Below, piece after piece: positions 9,103 to 38,426 of a DNA stretch of 39,201 nucleotides (position 1 is the stretch's first letter; every line of letters begins with the position of its first letter). Below the pieces are notes generated by a model. It did no database searches. It saw only the letters and a program-made list of their open reading frames with translations, and was not told the origin of the DNA. This stretch comes from Coriobacteriales bacterium (GTDB lineage: Bacteria > Actinomycetota > Coriobacteriia > Coriobacteriales > UBA8131), in the NCBI GenBank assembly GCA_031279835.1, contig JAITHV010000125.1, positions 1 through 39,201 of the forward strand, read 5' to 3'. Position numbers and translations under genes: made by a program.

Positions 9103-12100
9103 CTAGGTACTATGCTTGTCGCCGCTCAGGACGCTTTTCCCGTCACCTTCGGCCCTGCGCCTGCGTCTATGGCTCAGACCGCTCAATAGCGCCACTGCTC
9201 CTATGAGCGTTCCGCCAGTGAACAGCACGGTGAGGACAAAGGCGTTGTCGCCCGTTTTGGGAAAACTGGTTCCCGTGCCGCGTGACACCTTGGGCTCTAC
9301 CGTTGGCGTGTCGGCGCCAAACGTCATCATGAAGGGGCTGATCACTGTAGTGATGACATTGTCGACTGCATCGTCTGTGAGCACGTAGTTGCGTGCAATA
9401 TGCGCTGAGGCACTGGAGACGATCTCATCGGGTGGCAGCATTTCGCCTGGGCAGACCACCAAATAATATGCCGGATACAGCCCTTGTGCCAACGATGCCT
9501 GCGCAAGTGACGATTCAACGGGGCCTTTCTGTGCACTGCTGCCCTTGGCCTCGGCACCCCAGGGCATAGTGGACGACAAGAGGTAGGGACTCCAGTCGAG
9601 CGGGGACTTCCAGACCTGCTGCTGAGGCACTGCGGCGTTGTCGGTGGTAAAACCGACCTCCACAGAACCATATTCATAGCGTACGCCGGTGACATACTCC
9701 CCTGCTGCCAGACCAAGGTCTGCCGTCGCAAGATGAGTGGTGCGCGTAGTTGGCAAGTCCTGCGCCCAAAGCTGCCAGCCTGAAGACGAGAAGCGCTGTG
9801 CGTTCTCGGGGTTATGGCGGTTTGCAGGATTGGTAGACATTGCGCTCGCTCGTGAATAGATGACGTCTGGGTCACTCAGATTCGTACGGTACCAGAGGTT
9901 CATAGCGCCATCTGTGTCGCCATAAACCACCGGAGTCCAGAGTTGCGTGAGGCGCACTTGTCCCGAAAGCGCGTTTTCCATTGGGTCGATGACAGTGAAC
10001 TCATCGGCGCGCACATTCGAGGTAGAGCGGAACCCCACTTTGTACGCAAACTCCTCAGTGCCGACATTGTTAATCTTCAGGTAGTCTTTCTCAAGTGTCT
10101 TGAACGCCGCTGAAGTAACATTTATGGTGTCCTTGCGCACCTCGCACGAGATCTGTATGAGGCTGTCGTAGAACACTTGGACCTCGCCAGTAGAGTCTTT
10201 GTCTAGCACAAAGACGTGCGGCTCACCACCTGTCTCCTCATATGAGGCATAAGCTTGGTTGGGCTGTGTCTCGCGCAGCTGATAGACCCCAAAGGAAAGC
10301 CCACCGAACTCGACTTTTCCGTCTGCCCCGGTGAGAACGCGGTCTGTGACCGGCGCCCATAAAGGGTCGTCAGCGGCTATGGCCCCAAGATCGCAGTCGA
10401 CGCGCCCTTCGAGCACCGGTACCGGGTAGCGAAGGAGCTCGAACTCAGTGTTTGGCAGGGGGGCCTTGGTGTCAGCGTCTAGCTTGATCCCCGTTTGCGT
10501 GACACGGCGATGATCAAAGAAGGTGACCGCGACGACAGTCTCCTCATCCGCTACCATAAAGCACGTCTCAGGGGGAAGCCCTTCCTCTGCCCGCTCCATG
10601 TACTCTGGGTTCGCGCGAGTCTCCACCACTTTGTAAGAACCAGCCTCTACCGGCGCAAAGGACGCGGTGCCATCTGCACCCGTGAGCTTGGTCTCGAGCA
10701 GCTGCCAGTCGCCTGCCTCTGGCACAGACTCCCTGAACAGGGCGAACTCGGTGTTGGGCACAGCCTCTTTTGTCGCTGCGTCAAGTTTGCTGACTACCAG
10801 GGAGCGCGACGTGTTGTCAAGCGTGATGACGATTCGGCCTGACGCAGGAGTGACCTCGAACAAGACGCTGCGCTCCTGTTCACCAGGAACAACATAGAAG
10901 GGGTTGGGGTATTCCTCGGTAAGCCGGTAGCTGCCGATTGCAAGCGGCGAGAAGAGCGCGGTGCCGTCGGAGCCAGTTTCTTTTGCCGCCACCTGCTGCC
11001 AGTCGCCTGCCCCTTTGGCCGACTCGCGCGAAAGGCTGAACCCGGTGCCGGGGATTGGCGCACCCGTCTCATGGTCGAGTTTGACTACCTCTGCCTCGTG
11101 AGGCTGCTCGACGACGACAAGCGCGTTGAGGCGGCTCACTGAGTCTTGCGCGATGCCGTCAGTCGACAGGGTTCGAACGAGCTTCCCGTTGGCGTCTTGC
11201 CGGACCATGAGCACCGACACAGGGTTGGGGTCGGGAAGCAGGTAGGCGTCAGGTGCCTTTGACTCCTGTATGAGCATGGTGCCGAGAGGAATTGTCAAAT
11301 TATGATCGCTGTCAAAGTATAGCTCGTCACCAGAGACTTGTGAGGACTTGCTAAAGTAGGCGTACCCGCCATCCCCAGTCTCGAACACCCAGGTCCTCGT
11401 CGGCTGGCCTGACGCCTCAGCGGCGGCTGCCGTGTGGTAGTAGCCGTCAAAGTAGCGCCAGGTGTACTGCGCGCCGGCCAAAGAGCGGCCAGAGCGGTCG
11501 TCAAGGCCGCCCGCCTTCCCCGTCACCGCATCGAGCTTTTGGACGTGCATGGGCGCTGGGTCGCCGACGGGCTGCTCAGGCACTGCTCCGTCATTGACCA
11601 AGGCGGGGCTGTTGGCCGCAGTGAGGCTCACCTCGTATACTGCGGGATCAAGCGCGTACCCCTGGGAGGCGACGACCTCCTTGACGTGATAGACGCCGAA
11701 GTACAGCTCGCCAGACGTGGCCTTGCCCGAGCCGTCGGTGACGAGCGTGCCGACGCGCCCTGTGTCTTGGTGTGCTTCGGCTTTGCTGGCATATACTCCA
11801 TATGTGGCACCAGTCAGGCTGTAGCATGCGTTGTCGCTCGTTATGGACGTGACGGCCGATCGTTTGGCGAGTGTAAGGCGGCCTTTCTTTGGCGCGTCGA
11901 GGGCATCGATGAACTGCTCGGAGGCAGCTCCTGCCGTGAACTTGCGCCAGCCTTCGTTGCCGTTTTGGTAGTCTGGGCTCGGGCTTACCTCGCGCCACTC
12001 GTACTCGGCCCCGACACGCAGCGCCGCCGGCGCCCAGTCTGTGTAGGTGCACGGCCTGCCCCCCGCTCCTTCATTCAGAGCGTAGCGCGTCGTGAGCGTC

Positions 12101-13524
12101 GCGAGCACGGTCTTGTCTGCTCCACGCAGCTGAAAGACCGTGCCCATGGTCGAGTAGGACGGGTTGTGGTCGGTCGCTGGGTCGGCCGAGTACTTGCCAA
12201 AGCGAACCTTGGGAAAGACCCAACGTATGCCCACAGAAACGTCCCCGAGATACTGATAGCTTTGTTTTGCTGGATTCTCGACATCATAGATATGGGTCGC
12301 CTTGGCCGTGTACCAGGCAATCCCCGCTGCCTCGTCAAGCCAATCAAGCGAAAAGGCGACCGGTCCCCAGTTGCGCGTGCCCGGTCCCAGCGGCCCTGCC
12401 AAAAACGCGTCGTCAGGCCACAGCCAATGGGTCGGGCCCGAGCCGTCAAGGCACATGAGTCGCCCGTCGTCGAAGGCCGGCGCGTTGGAGCCCCATGACG
12501 CGATCTCAAATCCGTCATTCGTCTGAAGGTGGCCTTGGTGATAGGCGACCGGGACTGTGCCAGCGTTATAGTCCGTTGCGACTGCGCACTCAAACGTGCC
12601 GTAGATTTTCTGAGGCGGCGCACCCGTGCCCGGCTTGCCCGTCGTGCTGTTGGTGAGCGGAGTCGAGACGCCAAAGGGCATGATGGCCTCAGGACCGGAT
12701 CGTGTTGAACGGGCCTGCGGCAACACATTCAAAGCTGCGTCATCTGCCAGTATGTTAGGCAACGGTATTGCTATGACAACAGTTGTTGCCACTGCACAAA
12801 ATGAAGTCGTGCTGCCTGTGTCCTGCTCAAAAAAGAACACTGCGTCGTAGTACGCGCGCCCGGCAAGCGTGTCGAGATTCTTGAGCGATAGGCACGAGCC
12901 GTCTGATGACTGAGACCGCACGGGCAAAGCGGCAGTGGGAGTCAGTATCTCTGCGTCTTCGCTGTCAAAGCGAGGGGTCTCAACGCCAAACGAGACGAGT
13001 CCCGGCTGAGTCACCGCGCCCGCCACGCGCCCTTCCTTCACAGCCTCGACCGTAAGCGTCGCAGTATTCCAAAGCTCGTTTGAAGGTGCGCTGTTGGGCG
13101 CGGCAGGATGTGCCCGAGCATCAAGCGCCTTCTGGTGCTTGTCGGTAAGCCAAACAGGGCTCTCGACAGCGGGCGTGCCGTCGCCATCTTGCCTTACGAC
13201 CTTGTCAGGCACCGCCACATCTGGCGTGGGTCGTGTGGCTTCCTGCTGGTTTGGCTGAGAGCCGTCATTTGTCTCGCCAGCCTGTTCGACGGTCGCAGAA
13301 GGCTCTTCTTCTTCCTCGCCTGCCGCATGAGGTATCGCGACGTTTTTTACTCGTTGCAGGGCGGTGCCCGGCTCAAGCTGTTGCTGCGCAGCAACAGCTT
13401 GTTCTTCCGAGGGGACCGCGCCGACGTCGTCGGCCAGCGCAGGCGCTACAGGTATAGACGCCATCACCAGGACCGTTGCCAGTGCAATGCTTAAGACGAT
13501 CTTCTTGAAGCTGTTTTTGACCAT
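9103..13524 (-). CDS. Large LPXTG-type surface adhesin / pilin-like protein with SpaA (Cna-B-like) domains
   Basis: A 1473-residue cell-wall protein. A signal peptide (1-31) ends at PALADD. Residues about 100-540 form a unique N-terminal region containing FECAVATDY and RLMCLDGSGP. Five SpaA-like beta-sandwich domains follow, beginning near residues 551 (LTLAKRSAVTS), 663 (KLDAVTGKAGG), 815 (KLDHETGAPIPGTGF), 911 (KLDAATKEAVPNTEF) and 1013 (KLDADTKAPLPNTEF); the lysine after V/S/I and the E in the TE/VE loops are the usual isopeptide partners. A further domain occupies about 1130-1400. The C-terminus has the sortase motif FPKTG, a membrane helix and a basic tail (HRRRRR). A strong ribosome binding site precedes ATG 13524. 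It probably projects from the cell and mediates adhesion; whether it polymerises as a pilus is unclear, and no sortase gene is in the window. Confidence 0.88.
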   Translation of the reverse strand: MVKNSFKKIVLSIALATVLVMASIPVAPALADDVGAVPSEEQAVAAQQQLEPGTALQRVKNVAIPHAAGEEEEEPSATVEQAGETNDGSQPNQQEATRPTPDVAVPDKVVRQDGDGTPAVESPVWLTDKHQKALDARAHPAAPNSAPSNELWNTATLTVEAVKEGRVAGAVTQPGLVSFGVETPRFDSEDAEILTPTAALPVRSQSSDGSCLSLKNLDTLAGRAYYDAVFFFEQDTGSTTSFCAVATTVVIAIPLPNILADDAALNVLPQARSTRSGPEAIMPFGVSTPLTNSTTGKPGTGAPPQKIYGTFECAVATDYNAGTVPVAYHQGHLQTNDGFEIASWGSNAPAFDDGRLMCLDGSGPTHWLWPDDAFLAGPLGPGTRNWGPVAFSLDWLDEAAGIAWYTAKATHIYDVENPAKQSYQYLGDVSVGIRWVFPKVRFGKYSADPATDHNPSYSTMGTVFQLRGADKTVLATLTTRYALNEGAGGRPCTYTDWAPAALRVGAEYEWREVSPSPDYQNGNEGWRKFTAGAASEQFIDALDAPKKGRLTLAKRSAVTSITSDNACYSLTGATYGVYASKAEAHQDTGRVGTLVTDGSGKATSGELYFGVYHVKEVVASQGYALDPAVYEVSLTAANSPALVNDGAVPEQPVGDPAPMHVQKLDAVTGKAGGLDDRSGRSLAGAQYTWRYFDGYYHTAAAAEASGQPTRTWVFETGDGGYAYFSKSSQVSGDELYFDSDHNLTIPLGTMLIQESKAPDAYLLPDPNPVSVLMVRQDANGKLVRTLSTDGIAQDSVSRLNALVVVEQPHEAEVVKLDHETGAPIPGTGFSLSRESAKGAGDWQQVAAKETGSDGTALFSPLAIGSYRLTEEYPNPFYVVPGEQERSVLFEVTPASGRIVITLDNTSRSLVVSKLDAATKEAVPNTEFALFRESVPEAGDWQLLETKLTGADGTASFAPVEAGSYKVVETRANPEYMERAEEGLPPETCFMVADEETVVAVTFFDHRRVTQTGIKLDADTKAPLPNTEFELLRYPVPVLEGRVDCDLGAIAADDPLWAPVTDRVLTGADGKVEFGGLSFGVYQLRETQPNQAYASYEETGGEPHVFVLDKDSTGEVQVFYDSLIQISCEVRKDTINVTSAAFKTLEKDYLKINNVGTEEFAYKVGFRSTSNVRADEFTVIDPMENALSGQVRLTQLWTPVVYGDTDGAMNLWYRTNLSDPDVIYSRASAMSTNPANRHNPENAQRFSSSGWQLWAQDLPTTRTTHLATADLGLAAGEYVTGVRYEYGSVEVGFTTDNAAVPQQQVWKSPLDWSPYLLSSTMPWGAEAKGSSAQKGPVESSLAQASLAQGLYPAYYLVVCPGEMLPPDEIVSSASAHIARNYVLTDDAVDNVITTVISPFMMTFGADTPTVEPKVSRGTGTSFPKTGDNAFVLTVLFTGGTLIGAVALLSGLSHRRRRRAEGDGKSVLSGDKHST

Positions 13525-17485: not shown

Positions 17486-17543
17486 CCCGTCGTTCAGTGT
17501 GGTACCATAGCATGTCTCTTACCGTTTGACGACAGGTCTTCTT

Positions 17544-18281
17544 GTGACAACACGCACACACACGCCCCCCCACCCCAGCCCTGTGCGCCTTGCGGCGCTT
17601 ATCCCCGCTGCTGGCCTCTCATCGCGCATGGGCACGTTCAAGCCTCTGGAACCAGTCGCTGGCCGGCCATTGATCCAATGGACCATCGAGTCAGTTTGGG
17701 CGGGCGGAGTCTCCCGTGTGTGCGTCGTGCTCGGCCGTCGCGCAAGAGACGTGCGCATGGCACTCGAGGCTGCCGAACTGGCATGTGGTCGTCAAGGCAG
17801 TTTGTACTTTGTTGAGAATATTTCTTATACGACAACAGACATGTTATACTCTTTACAGTTGGGACTAGGCGCCCTACTTGCCAAAACCGACCCTCCTAAT
17901 GCCCTGTTTGTCTTGCCGGGAGACATGGCGGGAGTCTCGCAGACGACCTTCCGCACACTGGCGAAGCGCGCTCAGCATTCTCCAGCCCGTGTCTTGCGCC
18001 CTACATGCAACGGAATCACTGGCCACCCCATCTTGATCCGAAGCGAGTGCCTGAAGCCCGTCCTCGGCTATTCGGGAGAAGGCGGGCTGCGCCAGGCGCT
18101 CGCAGGCCATCCTGTTGAGTCGGTTGAGACAGGCGATATCGGCGTGCTTCTCGACGCTGACGAGCCTGCAGACCTAGAGGTGTTGAGAAAGCATATGGCC
18201 GCTCTGCGCCATGGCAACAGCCAAAATGTTGCCACAGCAGACACAGGTCGTTTGCCTGGCCCACAGGTGCCAACAGTATAG
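17544..18281 (+). CDS. MocA-like molybdenum cofactor nucleotidyltransferase (DVU_1551-family NTP transferase)
   Basis: A protein of about 245 residues with a MobA/MocA nucleotidyltransferase fold. The signature LIPAAGLSSRMGTFKPL and the metal-binding region VLPGDMAG are clear. Relatives transfer CMP to molybdopterin to make the dinucleotide cofactor used by xanthine-oxidase-type enzymes, which fits the oxidoreductase encoded in this island. The start is uncertain: the frame opens with TTG 17526, GTG 17544 follows an ACAGG-like site, and a third GTG occurs at 17580 right before the conserved core. It is the first gene of a two-gene plus-strand unit with the XdhC-like gene, 19 bases downstream. 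Confidence 0.8.
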   Translation: MTTRTHTPPHPSPVRLAALIPAAGLSSRMGTFKPLEPVAGRPLIQWTIESVWAGGVSRVCVVLGRRARDVRMALEAAELACGRQGSLYFVENISYTTTDMLYSLQLGLGALLAKTDPPNALFVLPGDMAGVSQTTFRTLAKRAQHSPARVLRPTCNGITGHPILIRSECLKPVLGYSGEGGLRQALAGHPVESVETGDIGVLLDADEPADLEVLRKHMAALRHGNSQNVATADTGRLPGPQVPTV

Positions 18282-18300
18282 TACCGAGAAAGGAATAAAC

Positions 18301-19344
18301 TTGTCCGAGAAAAACGTGTTGACTCGAACCATGTATGCGCGTCTCCTTGAGATCCTCAAGGCAGGAGAATCGGCAGCAGTCGTCACCGACTACCATGCAT
18401 CAGGCGCCGTGACGCGCCGCCTGATGCCGAACACTGACGCTGCGGCAGCTGCTGAAGTCGACGCTCTCCAGAAGCACCCTGACGCCGTCGCGCACGGACC
18501 GGTCACCCACATTCGCCGCAGTGACACCGCCATGACCGTTGTGGAGAACTACGCTGTGAAGCCACGCCTCATTATCATCGGCGCCGGCCATGTGGCACTT
18601 GCGCTCGCACAGATGGCAAAACTCGCAGACTTCACGGTGATCGTCTTTGACGACCGTTCAAGCTTTGCGAACACTGAGCGCTTTGCCTGCGCCGACGAGG
18701 TAGTCTGCGACGGCTTCGGGCATCTCTTCGAGCGCATTGCAATTCAAAAGACCGATTATGTGGTCATTGTCACACGAGGCCATCAATATGACGCGGTGAG
18801 CCTGGCCGGCGTGCTGAGTGGCGTCGAACCGTGCTACACCGGGATGATTGGATCCAAGCGACGCGTTGCCATCGTTAAAAAGCAGCTGGCGCTCGAGGGC
18901 GCCGACTCGTCTCGGTTAGAGCGGCTGCACTCCCCCATCGGGCTAGCCATCGGCGCGGTGACGCCCGCTGAGATCGCAGTATCGATCTTAGCCGAGATAC
19001 TATCTGTCAAGCGGCTCGCGAGCGCCACATGCCATGCCTCGTGCGACCTTGAGGCTGTCGAGGCAATCGCCGCTGGGATGGATGCCGACGCGCTCATCAC
19101 AATCGTAGACACCTTTGGCTCTGCGCCCAACGAGCCAGGGGCAAAACTTGCCATGAGCTATACCGGCGCTATACAGGGCACGGTGGGCGGAGGCTGCGGC
19201 GAGGCAGACGCTATGCGCGCGGCGCGCGAGCTAATAGCTGTCGGCGGATGGCGCTGGCACACTATCGACCTCAACGACAGCGCTGAAGACGAGGGCATGG
19301 TCTGCGGTGGAGAGATGCGCCTGATCATAGAGACGCTCGATTGA
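18301..19344 (+). CDS. XdhC-family molybdenum hydroxylase maturation factor
   Basis: A 347-residue protein. A short N-terminal segment (1-80) is followed by a Rossmann domain with IIIGAGHVALALAQMA (91-106) and MIGSKRR, as in the C-terminal half of XdhC. The XdhC/CoxI domain, with TVGGGCGEADAMRAARELI and GMVCGGEMRLIIE, is at the C-terminus (about 235-347). In ordinary XdhC proteins the CoxI domain comes first, so the order here is reversed; I recall that aldehyde-oxidoreductase maturation factors linked to this gene set share it. XdhC binds the molybdenum cofactor, protects it and helps its sulfuration before insertion. Start TTG 18301 is chosen because GAAAGGA lies six bases upstream; the frame is open from 18211 but overlaps the previous gene. 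Confidence 0.82.
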   Translation: MSEKNVLTRTMYARLLEILKAGESAAVVTDYHASGAVTRRLMPNTDAAAAAEVDALQKHPDAVAHGPVTHIRRSDTAMTVVENYAVKPRLIIIGAGHVALALAQMAKLADFTVIVFDDRSSFANTERFACADEVVCDGFGHLFERIAIQKTDYVVIVTRGHQYDAVSLAGVLSGVEPCYTGMIGSKRRVAIVKKQLALEGADSSRLERLHSPIGLAIGAVTPAEIAVSILAEILSVKRLASATCHASCDLEAVEAIAAGMDADALITIVDTFGSAPNEPGAKLAMSYTGAIQGTVGGGCGEADAMRAARELIAVGGWRWHTIDLNDSAEDEGMVCGGEMRLIIETLD

Positions 19345-19435
19345 GCAACGTTGCGAAGCCACGTGACAGAGATGCGAAGCAACGCCACGCCGCAGCGCCT
19401 ATCTGATATTTCGCGAGCATTTGACTATAATAGCG

Positions 19436-20791
19436 CTAACATCTGGCTGCAGCCCTTGCGGGCAGGATGGAGCGCTTAGCCGGATACCACGGGCGAAACG
19501 CGGAAAACTGCCTGATGTCTGCCTCCACGCCCAAGGCGCCTGACACGACGAGCTGCCCCAGGCCTTCTCCTAAAGCCACTCGGACGTCTTGCGCCGAGAG
19601 GGCGTGCCCCGGAAGCACGGCCAACACGAGTGAGAGAAGGCACTGGGCAGCATCGTATGAGGCGTGAAAATCCACGACTCCTGGCAGCTTGAAGAGACAG
19701 TCCTCCAACTCGTACATCCCAAAACGGCGGCCATGGCATGCTATCTGCTCGTCAAGCCTCCCCTTTACGGCATCGATGCGCACAAGCAGCGATCCGCAGG
19801 CGCAGCGCCCGCTGATGAGGCGCGTCATGTCGCCGGTGCGGTAGCGGACAAGCGGCATGGCGCGGCGCGTAAGCGTCGTGACCACCAGTTCGCCCCAAGA
19901 CCCCAGATGTGCGAGCGCGCCCGTGCAGGGGTCAATGACCTCGAAGACCAGCTCGGATTCGCGGACATGGTAGCCCGTATGATGCGGGCATTCTACCGCG
20001 CCGCCGTAGCCAGTCTCGGTCATGCCAAAATGGCCAAACACCGCAGCGCCCCAAATGCGCTCGACCTCGCCTCGCAGGCTCGGTGCTATGGTGTCGGCCG
20101 ATAGCAGCACGCCTTTTACGTCTAAAGAGACCCCCACATGCTCGCACCAGCGCGCAAAGGCAAACACGTGCTGGGGGAATCCCACGATGCCTTGCGCTTT
20201 GTGGCCAGCCAAGGCGTCCGCAAGCTCAGGAAAGCCTGTGGGTAGCCCCAGGGCGAGCGGGGTCGAGCCAGCCTGGCGAATTGCCTGTGCCAGTAGGTCG
20301 CCGAGGCCGCCAGGACGCTCGCAAGGATACAGAATTGCAATTGCCTCTCCTGCGCCTGCGAGCATGCGCATGCCTGCAGCAAAATAGTCTACGGTGGCCG
20401 CATGGTCGGCAGGCGTGAAGGCCACGCGCTTGGGCGTTCCCGTTGTGGCGCTCGTGGGCAGGGTCACTAGCCTGCTCACCTCGTCTTGCCCGACACAGAG
20501 CAACGGCCCAATGCCTGCCGAGAGGTCCGTCGGCCCCATGAGCGGCAGGGTCACGAGGTCATCAAGGCGCAAAAGTCGCCGAGACGGCAGCTGAGAGCGG
20601 TAGAATCGGCTGTGGGCACGGGCATGTGCGATCGTCTCGTTAAGGAGCCCAATGCGCAGATGGTCGAGCTCGCCGCGCGTAAGGGCCCCAGCAATTCCTT
20701 GCTGCACACGATACGCATACGCTAGCTCGCCTCTCAGACTGCCCAGCCTCCCCGTAGGCCTGCCATCTGCGCGCCAAGCGCTGCTACTCAT
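19436..20791 (-). CDS. AMP-dependent CoA ligase-like protein (DVU_1553 family, PaaK-related)
   Basis: A 451-residue adenylate-forming enzyme related to phenylacetate-CoA ligase. The nucleotide loop is TSATTGTPKRVAF, the adenine-binding motif GHFGMTETGYGG, and the hinge region includes VRYRTGDMTRL, followed by a small C-terminal domain. A cysteine pair (RCACGS) lies in the region where PaaK relatives can bind zinc. These enzymes activate a carboxylate with ATP and transfer it to CoA; the substrate is unknown. The ATG at 20791 overlaps the last codons of the radical SAM gene by eight bases, so translation is coupled; a GTG start at 20815 is possible. It is conserved beside Mop-type oxidoreductase genes in Desulfovibrio (gene name from memory). 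Confidence 0.78.
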   Translation of the reverse strand: MSSSAWRADGRPTGRLGSLRGELAYAYRVQQGIAGALTRGELDHLRIGLLNETIAHARAHSRFYRSQLPSRRLLRLDDLVTLPLMGPTDLSAGIGPLLCVGQDEVSRLVTLPTSATTGTPKRVAFTPADHAATVDYFAAGMRMLAGAGEAIAILYPCERPGGLGDLLAQAIRQAGSTPLALGLPTGFPELADALAGHKAQGIVGFPQHVFAFARWCEHVGVSLDVKGVLLSADTIAPSLRGEVERIWGAAVFGHFGMTETGYGGAVECPHHTGYHVRESELVFEVIDPCTGALAHLGSWGELVVTTLTRRAMPLVRYRTGDMTRLISGRCACGSLLVRIDAVKGRLDEQIACHGRRFGMYELEDCLFKLPGVVDFHASYDAAQCLLSLVLAVLPGHALSAQDVRVALGEGLGQLVVSGALGVEADIRQFSAFRPWYPAKRSILPARAAARC

Positions 20792-22286
20792 AGTGGTGCA
20801 GGGCACGTGCCGCACGGTAATGGCTCGGCGTGTTGTTGCTGCTCAAATTGTAGGCGCAAAAAGGCACCAAGGTTCCGTCGGCATCCATGACAAAGATGTA
20901 GCAGCGGCGCAGCCGGTCAAAATCCATCGTCTCAGCGTCCATAAACGCCATGCCGGTGAGGGAGAAGCCGCGCGCCTTGGTGCGCCAAAGGAAGCCGTCA
21001 AGGGTGGCAGGAGGCAAAGGCCCGAAGCCAAGCTCGCCGATGTCGCAGCCCCATCGTCGTGCCTGCGTGTCTTGCGCACGCTGCACGGCGTCTGCCTGCG
21101 GCATGCCGCAACAGGTTCCCACAGACGGGCCGTCAGGGCGCACAGAGACGAGCCTTCCCTCATCGTCAATGAGATAGTTGGCGTTAAACGAGCAGTAAGG
21201 GTTCTCTGCAGTGCCTCCGCTAAAGTGCTCGCGGCTGATCATTCCACCGCTTTGCTCTTCAAGCAGTGCGAGCACGTCAGGTATGGTCATTCGGCGTGGG
21301 GGCGCAGGGATGTCAGAACGGCCAAAAGAGGCAAGAGGCTGCACGTGCACGCCCCGGACCACCGGGCATCGCGATACGCCGAATTCCACAATCGGCATGA
21401 GCTCATGCTCATTGACGCCGCCGGCAAGAGTGCACACAAGCACGACCGGCAATCCAGCGACGGCACAGGCGTCGATCGCTGCCAGCTTCTGCTCGCGCAG
21501 CGCGCGCCCTCGAAGCAGGCGCACTGGCTCGTCGTCAAGTCCGTCAAACTGAAGGAACACGCAGGTCAGCCCTGCCTCCTTGAGTCGTTGCGCGCGCTCG
21601 GGCTCCTCGCCGAGAAGGATCCCGTTCGTGTTGAGCTGAAAGTAGCTGAAGCCCTTGTCGCGTCCGATGCGAATGATGTCTTCGAGGTCGTCGCGCAGCG
21701 TAGGCTCCCCACCTGAGATCTGGATGTGGCATAGCCCAGCCACAGCCCGCAGCGCGTCGTACCAATGGGCAATAGCCTCAAGCGGCGGGTCCGCCACGTC
21801 AGTCGCCGCATGCGCCTGCTTCGCAAGGCGAGACCGGCCGGCGTCAGCATAGCAGACCGGGCAGGAGAGGTTGCAGCGCTGTGTCACCTCAAAGAGCACA
21901 CAGCAGGGGCGGGTCTCGTGCTGAGCGCACGTACGACACCCGTCGGGACACGGTGGTCCCACCAGCGCATTTGTGGGCCTGGCTTCCCCCGGTGCCAGGT
22001 CGCCTGCTGCAGCAGCGCCACAACACGAGGACAGCGCGGATGCCGCTTCGGGGTTGCTCCATGAGGAGAAGTCGATGCGACGGGACCACACAAGCTCTGA
22101 GAAGCTGCCGTGTACAGGGCAGGAGCGCTGGAGAAAGACGTCTCCCTCGCGAATGACGCGCCGTGCCTCCAAGGGCATGAGGCACACAGGGCAGACACTT
22201 GCAGTTATGGCGCAGGGCCCGTCACCAGAAGGTCCCGTTGCCAAGGATGGTGGTACTGGCTCATTTTTTGAGCAACATACGTCCAT
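20784..22286 (-). CDS. trsS: Radical SAM protein, TrsS-like
   Basis: A 500-residue radical SAM enzyme. The N-terminus has a zinc-ribbon-like pair CPVC (32-35) and CPVHG (56-60). The cluster motif is RCNLSCPVCYADAG (C138, C142, C145), followed by the SAM-binding QISGGEPTLRDDL. Further cysteine groups occur at 113-129 and near residues 350 and 390, and the C-terminus reads LVPFCAYNL. This pattern fits the family I know as 'radical SAM (seleno)protein TrsS', which accompanies Mop-type oxidoreductases; here every candidate site is cysteine and there is no in-frame TGA. Reaction unknown. AAGGAGG precedes the ATG. It heads a minus-strand unit with the CoA ligase. Confidence 0.78.
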   Translation of the reverse strand: MDVCCSKNEPVPPSLATGPSGDGPCAITASVCPVCLMPLEARRVIREGDVFLQRSCPVHGSFSELVWSRRIDFSSWSNPEAASALSSCCGAAAAGDLAPGEARPTNALVGPPCPDGCRTCAQHETRPCCVLFEVTQRCNLSCPVCYADAGRSRLAKQAHAATDVADPPLEAIAHWYDALRAVAGLCHIQISGGEPTLRDDLEDIIRIGRDKGFSYFQLNTNGILLGEEPERAQRLKEAGLTCVFLQFDGLDDEPVRLLRGRALREQKLAAIDACAVAGLPVVLVCTLAGGVNEHELMPIVEFGVSRCPVVRGVHVQPLASFGRSDIPAPPRRMTIPDVLALLEEQSGGMISREHFSGGTAENPYCSFNANYLIDDEGRLVSVRPDGPSVGTCCGMPQADAVQRAQDTQARRWGCDIGELGFGPLPPATLDGFLWRTKARGFSLTGMAFMDAETMDFDRLRRCYIFVMDADGTLVPFCAYNLSSNNTPSHYRAARALHHYE

Positions 22287-28079: not shown

Positions 28080-28829
28080 TCAGCCGAGATAGCGCTCGCG
28101 CGTCTTGAGCTTGCGCGCGACGCCCTGCTTGCCACAGCGCTCGCACAATAGCTCCGGCGACTCCCCGCCTTTGCGGGTGAGAAAGTCGTGCTGCTCGCGG
28201 GTCATTAGCGGCGCGTTGCAGCCAGTGCAGCGCATGAGCTCGAACTCCCTGCCCCAGACAGACACGGATTCGTCGGTGTGCTCATAAGCGATAGTTCCTG
28301 TTGGGCACACATGCGCGCACGAGCCACAGCCGATGCAGTCTGGTGGCATGCCGTCAAACGGCGCGGCTATCTTTTTTGTGACGCCGCGGCCCACTTTGGC
28401 GATTGCCCCGGTGCCGAGTGCCTCGCAGGCGGCGGTGCAGCGTCCGCACAGCACGCAGGTGTCGCTCTCGGGCGCCTTCACGAGCCGAGGGATGTCTGCG
28501 CCAAGCTGAAGGGCGAGCCTCTTGATCTCTGTGCTGCCGGGCGCAAGGCTCAAAAGCAGCGCGATGATGACTGAGCGTTGCTCGCGGATGCGCGGGCTTG
28601 CAGTATGGACCTCGATGCCGTCACGCACGGGATACACGCACGACGCCACCACCTTGCTGCGCCCACGCTCGATTACCTCCACGATGCACACGCGGCAGGC
28701 GCCGATAGGGAGAAGCCCCCTGTGATAACAGAGATGTGGTATGAGCATGCCGTTTCTCTCGGCAACGTCGAGCAGGTACTCGCCCTCCTCGCACGCGCAC
28801 ACACGGCCGTTGACAGTAATGCTGATCAT
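28080..28829 (-). CDS. NuoG/HndD-N-terminal-like iron-sulfur protein with zinc ribbon
   Basis: A 249-residue electron-transfer subunit. Residues 1-78 are a [2Fe-2S] domain (C34, C45, C48, C64). The usual His-Cys3 cluster segment that follows in NuoG and HndD is present in length but lacks the ligands. Two [4Fe-4S] motifs follow (C125/128/131/135 and C165/168/171/175). The C-terminus adds a ribbon with CTGC (201-204) and CERC (229-232). No hydrogenase or NuoG molybdopterin-type domain is present. ATG 28829 overlaps the NuoF-like stop (ATGA) and is preceded by AAGGAGG; the frame open to 28967 is upstream overlap. It is the last gene of the operon and would pass electrons between the diaphorase and the other subunits. 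Confidence 0.85.
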   Translation of the reverse strand: MISITVNGRVCACEEGEYLLDVAERNGMLIPHLCYHRGLLPIGACRVCIVEVIERGRSKVVASCVYPVRDGIEVHTASPRIREQRSVIIALLLSLAPGSTEIKRLALQLGADIPRLVKAPESDTCVLCGRCTAACEALGTGAIAKVGRGVTKKIAAPFDGMPPDCIGCGSCAHVCPTGTIAYEHTDESVSVWGREFELMRCTGCNAPLMTREQHDFLTRKGGESPELLCERCGKQGVARKLKTRERYLG

Positions 28830-30616
28830 GCGAGCGCCTCCTTGCGCTGATGGGCCGACACCGCGTCGAAGCGGCAGGACTCGCGGCAGGACCCGCAGGC
28901 TATGCAGCCGTCGCGCGCGATCTCGTAAGGTGTGTCTTTGTCTCCGCTGATCACGTCTACAGGGCATGCCTTCTTACAGGCCCCGCACGAGGTGCAGGCC
29001 TCGCTGTCTATGACAAACGTCGTGAGTGCCGGGCACACGCCGGCGGGGCACCTGCCCTCCTCGATGTGCGCGGCATACTCGTCGCGAAAGTGCGCAATGG
29101 TCGAGAGCACCGGGTTGGGCGCGCTTTGCCCAAGCGCGCACAGGGAGCTCTCCTTCATAGTCGCGCCGAGCCGCTCAAGCAGCTCGATGTCACCTTGCTG
29201 CCCGCGCCCCTCGCACAGGTCGGTGAGTATGGCGAGCATCTGGCGCAGACCCTCGCGGCACGGCGTGCACTTGCCACAGCTCTCGTCCGAGAGGAACTTC
29301 ACGTAGTAGCGCGCGACCTCGACCATGCAATCGTGCTCATCCATGACGATCATGCCGCCCGAGCCCATCATGGCGCCCTTCTCGGTCAGCGTGTCAAAGT
29401 CTACCGGCAGGTCAAGCAGCCCCTCGGGGATGCACCCGCCCGACGGGCCGCCCGTCTGAACCGCCTTGAAGCGCCGGCCGCGCCTGATGCCGCCGCCGAT
29501 GTCGAAGATGAGATGGCGCAGCGTCACTCCCATAGGAACCTCGACGAGGCCAGTGCGCTCCACCTTGCCTACGAGGGAGAAGACCTTCGTCCCCTTGGAG
29601 CCCTCGGTGCCGATCTCGGCAAAGCGAACGCCGCCCTGCGCGATGATGACGGGGATGTTCGCCAGTGTCTCGACGTTGTTGAGCACCGTTGGCTTGTCCC
29701 ACAGCCCGCGCTGGACGCTGCGCACGTACTTCGCGCGAGGCTCCCCAAGCCTGCCTTCGATAGAGGCCATGAGCGCGGTGGACTCGCCGCAGACGAAAGC
29801 CCCGCCGCCGCGCACTATCTCGAGGCGCAGGCGGCGCCCGGAGCCTCGTATGTTGGTGCCGATGTACCCTCTCGCCTCAGCGGCGCCAAGCGCTGCGGCG
29901 ACGTTGGCGCACGCAAGGCCGTACTCGTCTCGTATGTAGAGAAACCCCTGCTCGGCGCCGATGGCAAGCGCGGTGATGGCCAGCCCCTCGATCACGCTGT
30001 GCGGGTCGCCCTCTAGAATTGAGCGGTCCATAAAGGCACCGGGGTCGCCTTCGTCGCCGTTGCAGCAGACATACTTGGGAAACACCTCCTCAGCGCGGGC
30101 AGACGCCCATTTGACGCCCGTCGGAAACCCCGCCCCGCCCCGGCCGCGCAGGCCTGACGCAGTGACCTCGGCGATTATCTCGTCAGGCTCCATCGCAAGT
30201 GCCCGTTCGAGCGCCCGGTACCCCCCTGCGTCCAGATAGTCGTCGATTGCAAGCGGGTCGATGGTCCCGATGTTGCGCAGCGCGACCTTGTGTTGTGGGG
30301 CGTAGAAGGGGTTGTCCGCCTGCCGCAGCACGAGCTTCTTGTCTGCGTCGCGAAACAACAGCGACATGACTGGCCCATGCCCGAGTGACGCGGCGATCTT
30401 CTCTGCATGCTCTGGCTTCACCCGGTAGTATGATATGTCGTCAGGCTGCACCTTCACGATAGGGCCGTTCTCGCAAAACCCGTTGCAGCCGGTGCGCTTG
30501 ACGCTTGCCTCTGGGCAAGCCGCGTCGAGGGCGTCAGCGACCGCAGCGGCCTTGTTGGCGAGGCACCCCGTTCCACAGCAGACCAGCAGGGTTCGGCTTG
30601 TGGCGTTGTCACTCAT
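28826..30616 (-). CDS. NuoF/HndC-like NAD(P)H-binding diaphorase subunit
   Basis: A 596-residue flavoprotein. The N-terminal thioredoxin-like [2Fe-2S] domain has C14, C18, C44 and C48 (CCGTGC, GCNGFCENG). The FMN site shows GLRGRGGAGFPTGVKW and the NAD(P)H site NGDEGDPGAFMDRSILEGDP. The [4Fe-4S] motif is SCGKCTPCREG with a later cysteine in SLCALGQ. Two ferredoxin motifs end the protein (CTSCGACKKACP and CIACGSCRESC). This is the layout of HndC and bifurcating hydrogenase/formate dehydrogenase diaphorases. Starts at 30616 or 30619 (tandem ATG) overlap the NuoE-like stop; GGTGAG lies just before. It likely hands electrons from aldehyde oxidation to NAD(P), or runs the reverse. Confidence 0.92.
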   Translation of the reverse strand: MSDNATSRTLLVCCGTGCLANKAAAVADALDAACPEASVKRTGCNGFCENGPIVKVQPDDISYYRVKPEHAEKIAASLGHGPVMSLLFRDADKKLVLRQADNPFYAPQHKVALRNIGTIDPLAIDDYLDAGGYRALERALAMEPDEIIAEVTASGLRGRGGAGFPTGVKWASARAEEVFPKYVCCNGDEGDPGAFMDRSILEGDPHSVIEGLAITALAIGAEQGFLYIRDEYGLACANVAAALGAAEARGYIGTNIRGSGRRLRLEIVRGGGAFVCGESTALMASIEGRLGEPRAKYVRSVQRGLWDKPTVLNNVETLANIPVIIAQGGVRFAEIGTEGSKGTKVFSLVGKVERTGLVEVPMGVTLRHLIFDIGGGIRRGRRFKAVQTGGPSGGCIPEGLLDLPVDFDTLTEKGAMMGSGGMIVMDEHDCMVEVARYYVKFLSDESCGKCTPCREGLRQMLAILTDLCEGRGQQGDIELLERLGATMKESSLCALGQSAPNPVLSTIAHFRDEYAAHIEEGRCPAGVCPALTTFVIDSEACTSCGACKKACPVDVISGDKDTPYEIARDGCIACGSCRESCRFDAVSAHQRKEALA

Positions 30617-31085
30617 CATTCTCACCGCCCTCACGATAGCTGTCTACCAGGGTAGGAAGCTGCTCAAGGGAGACCTTCCCGTAATAGGCCTCACCGACGA
30701 CCATGACCGGGGCCAGTGCGCAGGAGCCGAGGCAGTTGACCAACTCGACCGAGAACTGTCCGTCGTCGGTCCTGCCATCCGCATCGAGCCTGAGCTGGCG
30801 GCTCAAGCTTCCCAGCAGGTTGCCAGCGCCGCGCATGTGGCAGGCCGTGCCGTCGCAAAGCTTGACGACATGCTTGCCCTTAGGCACCAGCGAAAGCGAC
30901 TTGTAGAATGTCGCAAGCGCATACAGGTGTGCCTGGGGCGTGTCGAGGCGCGCTGCGACGATAGGCAAAGCCTCTGCCGGAATGTAGTTGAACTCCCGCT
31001 GGATGTCTTGCAGTATTGCAAGTGAGAAGCGCCGCTCGGCAGGGTAGCGTCGAGCGATCTCCTCGATATGCGTGCTGTGGTCCAT
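30609..31085 (-). CDS. NuoE/HndA-like [2Fe-2S] subunit
   Basis: A 158-residue thioredoxin-fold protein of the 24 kDa NADH dehydrogenase family. Cluster ligands are C77 and C82 (CDGTAC) and C118 and C122 (CLGSC). The N-terminal helical part (IARRYPAERRFSLAILQDIQ, YIPAEAL) is the usual family lead-in. It pairs with the NuoF-like subunit. ATG 31085 is chosen since GGAAGG lies eight bases upstream; earlier codons of the frame are unlike the family. The stop overlaps the NuoF-like start region, indicating coupled translation. The flavoprotein gene ends 46 bases upstream. Confidence 0.92.
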   Translation of the reverse strand: MDHSTHIEEIARRYPAERRFSLAILQDIQREFNYIPAEALPIVAARLDTPQAHLYALATFYKSLSLVPKGKHVVKLCDGTACHMRGAGNLLGSLSRQLRLDADGRTDDGQFSVELVNCLGSCALAPVMVVGEAYYGKVSLEQLPTLVDSYREGGENDE

Positions 31086-31131
31086 GGATGCCTTCCTTCG
31101 TCTTCTCCGTGGCGGCGCCTGGCGGGCAGGG

Positions 31132-33576
31132 TCAGTCGCGCAGTATGCCCATCCGGTGGCTGTAGGCGCCAAGCACCAGCAAAGCGTCGCCGTCACGGCG
31201 GTAGTGGGTCCAATAGGTCACGTCGTTCTTCTTAAGCGAGGCCAGCTTGCTGCCGTCGTCTTTGTGGGCAAAGCAGGCCGCCGTGCCGTTCTCGGCGGCG
31301 GCTATGGTGTCTGCGAGGTCTTCCATGAGGATAAGGCGCTCCTCCATGAGGCCCAGCAGCTCGGGCGACACGGCAAGCGGCATGCCGTCGACCGTCGGCG
31401 GCGCACAAGGGCTTGCGCTGTCGTCGTCTTGCGCATGGACAGCCCTGAGCAAAAGACGCCGACACTCCATGCGGTTGACGCGGCGCTCAGACAAGGTTGG
31501 CATGCGCTTCGGCTCCCCGCCTGTTGCCAGCGCCTCGGCGCTTTTTGGCTCTCCGCCTGCTGCCAGCGCCCCGGCCATTGGCACTTGAGAGGGCGGCCCA
31601 AACACGAGGTCGAGCAGGTGGAACGCGCGACGTCCGGATTCCACCAGCAAGTCGCGGCACATCGCGCAATAAACGAGCAGGTCGTTGGTGCCCGAAAGCG
31701 GGCGCTCTGAGGCGAACTGCCGCCCCTGCTCGCGATCGGCATAATACACAAGGCCGCCGTAGCCACAGCATGGGGCGTCATCACGCGTGTAAGGGAGCTC
31801 GTCTATGCGATAGCCGAGACGCCCTGCTATGAGACGCACTGCCTCATGGAGCGGGGCGTTGCCGCGCGCGGAGCAGGCATCGTGTATGCTGAGCGCGCGC
31901 TGCTGGCCATGAGGCTCGTCGCGGGCGTCGCGGGCGTCGCGGGCGTCGCGGGCATCGCCGGCGTCGCCGCCTGCGTGGCCTGCGTGGCCGCTTCGTTCGG
32001 GAAGGCCAAGCTCGGACATCAACTCCCAGAGTGACACCTGTCTCATCTCAGGCAGTTGCTGCGCAAAGGTGTCCATACAGCTCGGGCAGGCGCAGACCAC
32101 GCAGGGGCGGCCGAGCCGCTCCCAATGTGTGCGAACCGTGCCGACGGCCTCCTCAAGCAGGCCATCGCGTCCTGCCCATCGCGCAGGCGCTCCGCAACAG
32201 CCAAGCATGGCAGCCACTCCCTCAGGCAAGCGGTCGCGCAGGAAGCCGTAGGCGCTCAGCACGTGCTCGGGGCTATACGCAGACAGCTGGCAGCCGGGAA
32301 AGAAGAGGTAGCGAGGCTGATCGCCCGATGCCTCGAGCTCAGGCGGGCAGAGCACAAGCGAGCAGGCGGAGCTGTTCGAGAACGCCATGTCGCGCAAGGC
32401 GAAGTCATGGGCAGATGGCGGCATTTTTTCTGTCGCCACCATGCTTCGTCGTGCTGCGGCAACGAGCCGCGTCATGCCGATGCCCAACGTGCAACGCTGC
32501 TCGCACAGGCCGCAGAGCGTGCAGGAGTTTATCATCCGGTTCGCGTAGCGCGTGCCCATAATGACGTTCTCGTTCGTGTACACCTCTCTGCCGTACGACT
32601 TGGGCCGCTTGCCGTAGCGCCGCAGATGGGCACAGGCCCTCGTGCAGGCGTCGCACGTGCACAGCAGGCAGCGCGACGCCTCTGAGGAGGCCTCGTCTTG
32701 TGTGTAGACGGTGCCCGTCTTTTGCACGCGAGGCAGCGACGCAGCTTCGGAGAGGTCGTAGTCGAGCAGGGTCTCGTAAGCGCCCTCGCGGGCGCGCTCA
32801 GCGGTGAGCGAAAGACGCTTGATGTAGCGCTCGACCGATGCGGCCGCTCGCTTGCCTGAGCTTGCCGAGGCTATGACGGAGGAGTCGCCAAGAAGCCTGC
32901 CCGCCACAAAGAGCGGCCTGCCTGCAGACTGATAGGTTGTCGCGTCGACTGGCACGCAGTCGCCCCATGATCCGGTGGCCAGCAGCACGGCGGCGTGTGT
33001 CGCGAACAACTGCTCAAGACGGCCGGCATCGAGTGAGGCGCCGTAACGCACGGTGATGCCAAGAGCACAGAACCCCTCGAGCTCGCGCTCGATATACTCG
33101 TGCGAGACGAGCGTGCCCTCGAAGGACCACAGTCTGCCGCCGAGAACGTCGGCCTGCTCGAACAGCTCGACGGCAAACCCCTTGCGGTCAAGCTCCCCTG
33201 CTGCAGAAAGACCGCTTATCCCGCCGCCCACCACGGCCACCGACCCTTGCGTCTTCGCAGTCGCGAAGCGCCGTTTGAACGGCTTGTAGCCGTAGGCGAC
33301 CGCCGCGCGCTCGAGCTCTCCGACGCTCACTGCGGCGTCAAGTCCTCCGCGCACGCAGGCGTCGGTGCACGGATGGTCGCAGACCATGCAGACGGCCCCC
33401 GCGAGGGGAACATGCTTTTGAAGCAGCGCATAGGCAGCCGCGTACTCGCCGCGCGCCACATGACGCGCAAGCACGGGAACGTCCACGTGCACCGGGCATC
33501 GTGCCGTGCATGCCGCCGGCTCGTCTTGCAGGCACCGCTCAAGCTCGTCGTACAAGGCCTGCTCTATTGGCACCAC
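31132..33576 (-). CDS. FAD-dependent pyridine nucleotide-disulfide oxidoreductase fused to Fe-S and CCG domains
   Basis: An 814-residue modular redox protein. Residues 1-80 form a GltD-like N-terminal cluster domain (C63, C66, C70, C74 among others). The FAD-binding motif VAVVGGGISGLSAAGEL (113-129) follows, then LLATGSWG of the second nucleotide site. Two [4Fe-4S] motifs come next (CLLCTCDACTRACAHL and CTLCGLCEQRCTLG), then two heterodisulfide-reductase-type CCG domains (FFPGCQLSAYS to LGCCGAPARW, and HDACSARGN to CCGYGG). A C-terminal domain ends in TYWTHYRRDGDALLVLGAYSHRMG. Two in-frame repeats encode linkers. Start is one of two tandem GTG codons (33576 or 33573) after GAGGAGG. It would connect the oxidoreductase to the NuoEF pair; flavin-based bifurcation is conceivable. 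Confidence 0.85.
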   Translation of the reverse strand: MVPIEQALYDELERCLQDEPAACTARCPVHVDVPVLARHVARGEYAAAYALLQKHVPLAGAVCMVCDHPCTDACVRGGLDAAVSVGELERAAVAYGYKPFKRRFATAKTQGSVAVVGGGISGLSAAGELDRKGFAVELFEQADVLGGRLWSFEGTLVSHEYIERELEGFCALGITVRYGASLDAGRLEQLFATHAAVLLATGSWGDCVPVDATTYQSAGRPLFVAGRLLGDSSVIASASSGKRAAASVERYIKRLSLTAERAREGAYETLLDYDLSEAASLPRVQKTGTVYTQDEASSEASRCLLCTCDACTRACAHLRRYGKRPKSYGREVYTNENVIMGTRYANRMINSCTLCGLCEQRCTLGIGMTRLVAAARRSMVATEKMPPSAHDFALRDMAFSNSSACSLVLCPPELEASGDQPRYLFFPGCQLSAYSPEHVLSAYGFLRDRLPEGVAAMLGCCGAPARWAGRDGLLEEAVGTVRTHWERLGRPCVVCACPSCMDTFAQQLPEMRQVSLWELMSELGLPERSGHAGHAGGDAGDARDARDARDARDEPHGQQRALSIHDACSARGNAPLHEAVRLIAGRLGYRIDELPYTRDDAPCCGYGGLVYYADREQGRQFASERPLSGTNDLLVYCAMCRDLLVESGRRAFHLLDLVFGPPSQVPMAGALAAGGEPKSAEALATGGEPKRMPTLSERRVNRMECRRLLLRAVHAQDDDSASPCAPPTVDGMPLAVSPELLGLMEERLILMEDLADTIAAAENGTAACFAHKDDGSKLASLKKNDVTYWTHYRRDGDALLVLGAYSHRMGILRD
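31507..31575. repeat. In-frame duplication (about 36 bp) in the flavoprotein gene
   Basis: Two imperfect copies of a 36-base unit encode ALAAGGEPKSAE and ALATGGEPKRMP. They form a linker between the last CCG domain and the C-terminal domain. Confidence 0.65.
31918..31989. repeat. 9-bp tandem repeat in the flavoprotein gene
   Basis: Three perfect copies of GCGGGCGTC (from 31921) are followed by degenerate copies and two copies of TGCGTGGCC. The encoded linker is rich in Asp-Ala-Arg triplets and joins the two CCG domains. Unit length is a multiple of three, so copy-number change would alter linker length without breaking the frame. Confidence 0.75.
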
Positions 33577-36453: not shown

Positions 36454-36903
36454 TCATTCGACGTCCATCAAGGACTTGAAGCGGGCTGCAAGCGCTCGCT
36501 TCTTGTCAAGCGCCGAGGCCGTGGCGCTTGCGTACACGATTGCGGACGTGGGACAGTACTTCGCGCAATCGGGACTTCCGCCGCACAGGTCGCACTTCAC
36601 GATGCGCTTCTCGGCGAAGTTGAACTCGATGTTGCCGAAGGGACACGCCCCCACGCACAGCTTGCAGCCGATGCAGCGGCGCACGTCGACAAGCACGGTG
36701 TCGTCAACGTCGCGGTACAGCGCGCCAACGGGGCACACGTCCATGCAGGCAGCCTCTTCACACTGCATGCACATGACGGGGATCGCAATGCTCGCCTCGT
36801 CGTCTGCAAAGGCGATGACGCTGACGGCGGCATTGTCGCAGACTGACTCGCAGGTGCCGCAGTCCTTGCAGAGCCGGGGTGTGATCAACAGGGTCTTATC
36901 CAT
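36454..36903 (-). CDS. Four-cluster ferredoxin (HycB/DmsB-like electron-transfer subunit)
   Basis: A 149-residue protein with 16 cysteines in four [4Fe-4S] motifs: C12/15/18/22, C45/48/53/57, C77/80/83/87 and C104/107/113/117. The layout matches DmsB/HycB-type ferredoxin subunits that carry electrons between a molybdenum enzyme and a partner. No twin-arginine or secretion signal exists, so it acts in the cytoplasm. It lies just upstream of the oxidoreductase and is its likely direct electron acceptor. The nearest strong ribosome binding site (GGAGG near 36945-36950) is about 40 bases before ATG 36903, with a hairpin between. Confidence 0.9.
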   Translation of the reverse strand: MDKTLLITPRLCKDCGTCESVCDNAAVSVIAFADDEASIAIPVMCMQCEEAACMDVCPVGALYRDVDDTVLVDVRRCIGCKLCVGACPFGNIEFNFAEKRIVKCDLCGGSPDCAKYCPTSAIVYASATASALDKKRALAARFKSLMDVE

Positions 36904-37010: not shown

Positions 37011-38198
37011 TCATAATTCCAGGAAGACCGGCTGCTTGGTGACAAGGACGGCCGCGCACGCCGCCGCCTCGGCGCTCGCGTCGGTCCCATGGTCGACACC
37101 GCTTGCAACCGGAAGGGCCTCGATGACGAGGGCGCTTGGGTCTATGCCGATGCCGGCAGCAATCGCCGCCGCGTTGATGTCGGGCTTTTGGGTCTGCACG
37201 ACGAGCCGCCCCTTGCTGTTGAGGTAGGCGAACACCACTGTTGGCTCGGGCAGCGCGGCGCCCGACAGACCGGAGCCCACGGCGCCGGGGGCCGAGGCGT
37301 CGGGGGCCGAGTCGTCGGCCTCGAGCTTCGCCACAACTTCACAGGCAGCCTCGGCGGCAAGGCCCTTGTGACAGGCCAAGACGATCGCGACGGCCTCGTT
37401 GCCGCGTGAGAGCGTCCGGTCGGCAAGTATCTTGCCGGTCGCTCCCAGGCGGTTGCTGCCAGGAATGTCTGACGCGGTCAGCACCTGCAAGACCCCGGGT
37501 GTCCTCAGGGCGCTGGCCGTGTCGATCGAGAGAATGCGCGCACCGAGCACGCCAGGACACACCAGTCTTGCATACAAGGTGTTCGCGGGAAGGCCGATGC
37601 CGACGTCGCAGCCAAAGCGCGCCGCGCCGGTCACCTTGGCGACCTCCTCGCGCTGCGCGAGCTCGGCACCAGGCGTATAAGGCTCGCCCTTCGCCTTGAG
37701 CCACAGCTCCTCGACCGAGGCGGTGCCCGACATGAGCCGCGCTGCGTCGAGCACGGCCTTGACGGCGGCATCGAGCGCCTCGGCGCCACAGGCGCCCTCA
37801 CAGCCTTCAAAGGCCGCAGCAACCTGTTCGGGAGCGGGGTTGCCTTCTTGGTCGAGCAGCGCCTTGGCGCGCACGATGAGGCCTGGCGAGAAGAAGCCTG
37901 CCTTCGCTACCCCATTGATGATCCACGTGACTTGTAGCGGGTGCAGGCACTGTGCGGTGCCCACCCCTTCGATGGTAATGACGCGCGCGTCTTCCGGTAC
38001 CTCTCTCATAACGAGCTCGCCGGCGTCTGTCGGGCTACCGTCAAGGATGACCGTGCGGGCTGCCTTGCCGGCAGGCCCCCGGACGTCCTTGGTGCCGGTG
38101 AGAAAGAGCTGCTCGCGCAGCACCTTCAATAACGTGTGCGCCGGGTCGGCAACCACACGTCGTTGCTCACCGTTGAGTATCAGTGTCTTTTTTAACAT
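37011..38198 (-). CDS. Truncated, cluster-less paralogue of the aldehyde oxidoreductase
   Basis: A 395-residue protein homologous to roughly the first 430 residues of the 907-residue oxidoreductase in the same operon. Shared stretches include the start (LxLNG, VLREQLxLTGTK), ITIEGVGT and LHPLQ, SPGLIVRAKALLD, LSIDTA, PGVLQVLTASDIPGSNR and GIGID. Seven of eight iron-sulfur ligands are gone: C40 is R40, the C46/C49 pair falls in GKAARTV, C61 is G60, C101 is A100, C104 is F103 and C140 is A139; only C137 aligns with C138. The molybdenum domain is absent: the ORF stops after PVFLEL, matching PVYLGL. The reading frame is intact with a strong ribosome binding site (GGAGG) before ATG 38198. It cannot bind the clusters; an assembly, scaffold or decoy role is inferred. 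Confidence 0.82.
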   Translation of the reverse strand: MLKKTLILNGEQRRVVADPAHTLLKVLREQLFLTGTKDVRGPAGKAARTVILDGSPTDAGELVMREVPEDARVITIEGVGTAQCLHPLQVTWIINGVAKAGFFSPGLIVRAKALLDQEGNPAPEQVAAAFEGCEGACGAEALDAAVKAVLDAARLMSGTASVEELWLKAKGEPYTPGAELAQREEVAKVTGAARFGCDVGIGLPANTLYARLVCPGVLGARILSIDTASALRTPGVLQVLTASDIPGSNRLGATGKILADRTLSRGNEAVAIVLACHKGLAAEAACEVVAKLEADDSAPDASAPGAVGSGLSGAALPEPTVVFAYLNSKGRLVVQTQKPDINAAAIAAGIGIDPSALVIEALPVASGVDHGTDASAEAAACAAVLVTKQPVFLEL

Positions 38199-38219
38199 CA
38201 GCCACCTCCACCTTCTTCT

Positions 38220-38426
38220 TCACTTGTCTTCTAATGCTTTTTCGACCTCAAGCATCTTGCCTAAGGCAAGCGCCTCGCCGACGAATACCTCGCCGCAATC
38301 TGGACAACACGACAGCTCGGCCTCGAAGTCCTTGCCGAGGTAGGCCAGTTTCGTCTTCCTCGGCACCAGGTCAGCCCCGCACCGCAGGCATCGCCAGCCT
38401 ACAGCGCTGTAGGCGTCATCTCGCAT
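38220..38426 (-). CDS. Small zinc-ribbon-like redox protein (DVU_1557 family)
   Basis: A 68-residue protein with two cysteine pairs, C13-x2-C16 (WRCLRCG) and C41-x2-C44 (CPDCGEVFVG), and a helical end KMLEVEKALEDK. This matches the DVU_1557-type redox proteins that accompany Mop oxidoreductases; it probably binds zinc or iron like a rubredoxin-type knuckle pair. No ordinary ribosome binding site precedes ATG 38426, which fits control by the structured leader upstream. It ends 21 bases before the truncated paralogue. Confidence 0.78.
   Translation of the reverse strand: MRDDAYSAVGWRCLRCGADLVPRKTKLAYLGKDFEAELSCCPDCGEVFVGEALALGKMLEVEKALEDK

Follow-up and report, generated by a model that had tools for sequence, protein, structure and literature searches.

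The window, that is, the whole 39,201-nucleotide stretch of DNA analyzed here, carries on its minus strand the operon of a Mop-type aldehyde oxidoreductase. In minus-strand order, it encodes a DVU_1557-family redox protein (positions 38220 to 38426; NF045645, 89.7 bits against a cutoff of 60), P0001 (37011 to 38198), a 4Fe-4S polyferredoxin that is kept in sister operons (36454 to 36903), the intact 907-amino-acid Mop, P0002 (33683 to 36406; NF045668, 1523.8 bits against a cutoff of 1100, and Pfam), a pyridine nucleotide-disulfide oxidoreductase/dicluster-binding protein termed diclust (31132 to 33576; NF045663, 817 bits against a cutoff of 530), and three further subunits, NuoE-like with a [2Fe-2S] thioredoxin fold (30609 to 31196; PF01257, 6.7e-43), NuoF-like FMN/NADH (28826 to 30634), and NuoG/HoxU-like Fe-S (28080 to 28967). 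Mop has all eight cluster cysteines and both Moco domains; P0001 is a cofactor-less, half-length paralogue of 395 amino acids.

The P0001 gene, directly downstream of the DVU_1557-family gene and separated from it by 21 bases, begins in the context GGAGGTGG-CTG-ATG, with the ribosome-binding-site-like GGAGGTGG at 38202 to 38209. Its frame contains no internal stop, as the first-pass annotation had described, and its GC3 of 0.785 is of the coding type, like that of its neighbors.

The gene content is that of a DVU_1551-1559-type Mop locus, with DVU_1557, diclust, an XdhC-type factor, an NTP transferase, and TrsS near Mop, the matches of the last three scoring below their own cutoffs. The maturation-type genes lie at 17526 to 22286 and comprise a DVU_1551-family NTP transferase, an XdhC-family AOR maturation factor, an AMP-binding-domain protein (below cutoff), and a TrsS-like radical SAM protein (474.5 bits against a cutoff of 490). 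The diclust and NuoE/F/G-like set downstream of Mop (28080 to 33576) recurs in the same order in two sister genera, which suggests an NAD-linked rather than a flavodoxin-linked aldehyde oxidoreductase complex. Elsewhere in the window, at 9103 to 13524, a 1473-amino-acid protein, matched four times by SpaA prealbumin-like domains, is probably a surface or pilus-type protein.

P0001 had been described as kept in the operon of the active enzyme, a statement that holds for this genome only. Two genomes of sister genera (G008 and G006) have the identical operon order without P0001, and the contig part available from a third (G018), which spans the DVU_1557-family, ferredoxin, and Mop genes and the start of diclust, lacks it as well; co-occurrence with Mop is thus not conserved. 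The spacing between the DVU_1557-family and ferredoxin genes in these three genomes is roughly 55 to 180 bases, and no recognizable remnant of P0001 was found in these gaps. Since the sister-genus operons share the gene order without it, P0001 either was added to an operon that is otherwise conserved or is the last copy left in it.

Homology and cofactor sites

P0001 and the Mop-type aldehyde oxidoreductase are paralogues, the former located inside the operon of the latter. Its match to the neighboring Mop (E = 1.3e-60 over residues 1 to 308), together with a second matching piece at residues 318 to 394 (3.4e-5), excludes a chance resemblance. The alignment runs along the length of P0001, but it covers Mop residues 1 to 450 rather than the first 430 reported earlier, at about 42% identity and with about 55 Mop residues deleted inside the span; the several length changes are all in frame. 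Four segments can be distinguished, all on the minus strand: a Fer2-like (plant-type ferredoxin) domain at residues 1 to 75 (37974 to 38198; AlphaFold2 confidence, 75 to 97), a Fer2_2-like helical domain at residues 76 to 155 (37734 to 37973; PF01799, 3.2e-9), an aldehyde oxidase/xanthine dehydrogenase a/b hammerhead domain at residues 204 to 293 (37320 to 37589; PF01315, 1.6e-12), and a truncated MoCoBD_1 remnant at residues 318 to 395 (37014 to 37247). The Pfam search of P0001 matched neither Fer2 nor any Moco domain.

Both the molybdenum half at the C terminus and the iron-sulfur ligands have been lost from P0001. Consistent with the original count of seven replaced [2Fe-2S] cysteines out of eight, the Fer2-like domain has lost all four of its ligands (C40R, C46K, C49R, and C61G in Mop numbering) and the Fer2_2-like domain three (C101A, C104F, and C140A). 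The sole ligand retained is Mop C138, corresponding to C137 of P0001 (codon 37788 to 37790); P0001 has eight cysteines in total, the others being scattered. All eight ligands are present in 13 of 13 full-length Mops of the alignment and, by automatic count, in 81 of 83 distinct relatives; the other two have a common alignment gap, located in the first loop; one of them, translated directly, has all eight.

The loss falls preferentially on the ligands. Within the two Fe-S domains, one of eight ligands is kept versus 24 of 29 other invariant residues (P = 0.0005), and over all residues invariant in the 13 Mops, the contrast is 1/8 versus 39/52 (one-sided Fisher test, 0.0013). The conservation claimed for non-ligand residues near the cysteines stands in part, but not for the ligand-loop residues G39, Q100, R135, R139, and Y143, which are also lost. 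The molybdenum domain, stated to be missing, is not wholly so: a MoCoBD_1 remnant of about 78 residues persists without a Pfam match, whereas its Moco-contact segment, GGTFGYKFSPT in Mop, has been replaced, the Mop sequence beyond residue 450 is absent, and no recognizable remnant of the missing half was found in the 107 bases after P0001.

By common descent and N-terminal fold, as seen in the E value, the Pfam matches, and the AlphaFold2 and Foldseek results, P0001 belongs with NF045668, the family that includes the enzymes of D. desulfuricans (1dgj) and D. gigas (1vlb/1sij). It shares both Fe-S folds and the hammerhead with them, and 1dgj is its best solved-structure match (2.9e-56). However, it scores only 254 bits against the curated cutoff of 1100, has one of the eight cysteines that hold the two [2Fe-2S] clusters of the family, and in place of two molybdopterin-binding domains has the motif-less MoCoBD_1 remnant.

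Predicted structure

The AlphaFold2 model of P0001, computed with 12 sequences, has a mean pLDDT of 69, with values mostly between 72 and 97 at residues 1 to 170, between 55 and 85 over much of the hammerhead, and below 50 at residues 172 to 202, 246 to 260, 297 to 323, and 364 to 375. When the active Mop was predicted with the same sequences as a control, the profile of the first 170 residues was nearly identical, so that the Fe-S half of P0001 is predicted no worse than that of the active enzyme; as such predictions lean on homologues, this does not prove that P0001 folds. The top Foldseek matches of the model were 1dgj and 1sij. Its Fe-S half superposes on the small, CoxS-type Fe-S subunits found in CO dehydrogenase, 4-hydroxybenzoyl-CoA reductase, and nicotinate dehydrogenase, all of the xanthine oxidase family, with target TM-scores of mostly 0.8 to 0.9. 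Unlike P0001, these subunits lack a fused hammerhead; those checked among the relatives keep all eight cysteines, as is general in this group.

Phylogenetic range and placement

P0001 is known from one MAG, which is also the only genome of its genus. Genomes were scanned at the levels of family (33), order (399), class (400), and phylum (397), along with 69 genomes of the order of G413 and 299 of the class of G652. These roughly 1,660 overlapping scans yielded no half-length, cysteine-less orthologue; the matches were full-length Mops, pairs of Fe-S and Mo subunits, or genes truncated at the end of a contig or by a frameshift. Among the short frames, three were opened, and a few matching at 27 to 30%, such as those of G151 and G200, were left out. 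The 336-amino-acid frame of G880 proved to belong to a full-length Mop, complete in its cysteines, that is broken by a frameshift; those of 592 and 625 amino acids, in G846 and G875, arise from the end of a contig and from a frame that is shifted or interrupted. No gene of the P0001 type was found in genome contigs, where only distant Clostridiales relatives matched, in viral contigs, or in plasmids, whose best matches were ordinary Fe-S/Mo subunit pairs. As many genomes of the family are incomplete, this absence is not proof. Our literature searches found no such case described.

Two observations on Mop genes were made along the way. The broken Mop-like gene of G880 (L100, 3840 to 6540, minus strand), its Fe-S cysteines all intact, is either a recent pseudogene or the product of a sequencing error, and contig 50 of G035 carries two full-length Mop genes (L066 and L067) about 14 kb apart.

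In the tree, the P0001 branch measures 1.2 to 1.6 substitutions per site, versus 0.12 to 0.16 for the adjacent Mop, and about 17% of the sites under strong constraint in Mop fall into a fast class on it. Since the AU test rejected none of four constrained placements, a duplication within the lineage, an older duplication followed by losses, and a transfer are indistinguishable.

Decay or constraint

A codon branch model rejected dN/dS = 1 on the P0001 branch with both topologies tried (2dlnL of 42 to 48 overall). By part, 2dlnL was 21 to 23 for the Fe-S domains, 16 for the linker plus hammerhead (residues 156 to 293), and 6 to 9 for the Moco remnant, whose last 41 or so codons are indistinguishable from neutral; because dS is saturated, omega values are not estimates and only likelihoods were compared. 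Retention was then compared with that expected had the codons evolved neutrally to an equal overall identity. Among sites invariant in five close Mops, P0001 keeps 54 of 74 hydrophobic residues versus about 31 expected, 13 of 38 charged residues (15 expected), and 11 of 34 other polar residues (12 to 13 expected), the latter two being as neutrality predicts; hydrophobic/Gly/Pro sites differ significantly from polar sites in retention (P <= 4e-5). As a spell of function and subsequent neutral decay would lower hydrophobic and polar retention alike, these data imply that a constraint on the fold, not on the surface or active site, once acted.

Judged by these comparisons, P0001 is not a simple decaying duplicate. 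The first-pass annotation had proposed that missing orthologues together with a dN/dS near one would mean such a duplicate; orthologues are indeed missing, as expected for decay, yet dN/dS is not near one in the Fe-S and hammerhead parts, and the frame contains neither stops nor frameshifts. Its suggestion that selection kept the fold and not the redox function gains support from both the branch model and the retention test, which indicate that P0001 evolved under constraint on its hydrophobic core. What these tests document is past constraint rather than present-day selection.

The same evidence bears on a late-decay scenario, in which P0001 is a once fold-constrained protein that is now a relic with its frame open by chance. 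This we consider unlikely, although it is the rival that fares best. The scenario fits the absence of P0001 from all relatives scanned, its very long branch, its truncation in the middle of MoCoBD_1, and the neutral appearance of its last 41 residues. Moreover, the open frame is a weak argument in itself because the DNA is GC rich: neutral drift to about the identity of P0001 would leave no stop with a probability of 0.001 to 0.044, depending on the GC equilibrium. Speaking against it, purely neutral decay is rejected by both tests, length changes are in frame without exception, and the ribosome-binding site and GC3 are intact.

Discussion

The best reading of our data, to which we give roughly even credence, is that P0001 is a paralogue particular to this lineage, devoid of cofactors and maintained for its fold, most likely in the role of a partner in docking or assembly for the Mop complex. 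The kept frame, GC3, rejection of dN/dS = 1, core retention, preferential ligand loss, confidently predicted Fe-S half with its CoxS-type superposition, operon position, and dedicated ribosome-binding site favor this reading, of which the partner role is the inferred part; the lack of orthologues, the occurrence in one MAG, the very long branch, and the unconstrained C-terminal 41 or so residues count against it.

In the mechanism we propose, P0001 would be translated as a folded, redox-silent protein of two ferredoxin-like domains plus hammerhead, a pseudo-subunit presenting the faces with which the N-terminal half of Mop docks. It would most likely bind the usual partners of that half, either a maturation factor or the acceptor module of the operon (ferredoxin/NuoEFG type), and would thereby aid assembly, tethering, or tuning of the active complex. 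The aldehyde oxidoreductase of D. gigas lacks an FAD domain and passes its electrons to a separate protein, flavodoxin (PMC10223205), and for this reason a face near its Fe-S domains is presumably a docking face in this family. Here, the electron acceptor is presumably the set of ferredoxin, diclust, and NuoEFG-like proteins; a copy devoid of clusters might keep that set in place or modulate it, or else serve in assembly. Partnering through the known dimer interface of the enzyme seems less likely because the Moco half is gone. Sequence does not discriminate among the roles suggested earlier, namely, those of a scaffold, a dimer partner, a chaperone, or a regulator.

An improbable alternative is that P0001 acquired a new function outside the Mop complex, for example, as a regulatory or small-molecule-binding protein that puts the cluster-less ferredoxin pocket to new use. 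Its ligand loops have been replaced, not deleted, and the fast-class sites could reflect such a change, but they are equally expected from lost constraint; furthermore, a single sequence cannot show a new conserved motif, and P0001 is located in the Mop operon. There is precedent in the cysteine-less 2Fe-2S-ferredoxin-like domain of proline dehydrogenase, which, like P0001, lost its cluster ligands while retaining the fold, possibly for reuse (PMC1949818). That domain, however, is part of a larger, different enzyme, whereas P0001 is a separate paralogue beside an active one. An assembly artefact is very improbable: the MAG is a single one of 134 contigs, but P0001 lies in the interior of a 39-kb contig, is flanked on both sides by sister-genus operon neighbors, matches them in composition, and is too far in sequence from any other to be a misplaced copy. 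Despite its eight cysteines and family resemblance, a P0001 that is still active as a redox Fe-S or molybdenum protein is scarcely credible with one cysteine at a ligand position and the Moco motif gone.

A further-reaching reading, somewhat less likely than not, is that a duplicated xanthine-oxidase-family enzyme now serves within its own electron-transfer complex as a structural or regulatory subunit free of cofactors. The route to such a pseudoenzyme would have involved deletion of the molybdenum half and discarding of the [2Fe-2S] ligands, with the ferredoxin folds kept. Complex I offers a parallel in NuoG, which contains a cofactor-free molybdoenzyme-like domain, a redox-enzyme fold retained as structure after cofactor loss; in contrast to P0001, that domain has the DMSO-reductase-type fold, is fused, and is widely conserved.

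The weight of the finding is limited by its single occurrence. Should P0001 prove genuine and functional, it would represent a paralogue without clusters retained next to an active molybdenum hydroxylase, within a family in which the relatives checked keep every cluster ligand, and it would amount to a natural split of the docking role of the fold from its electron-transfer role.
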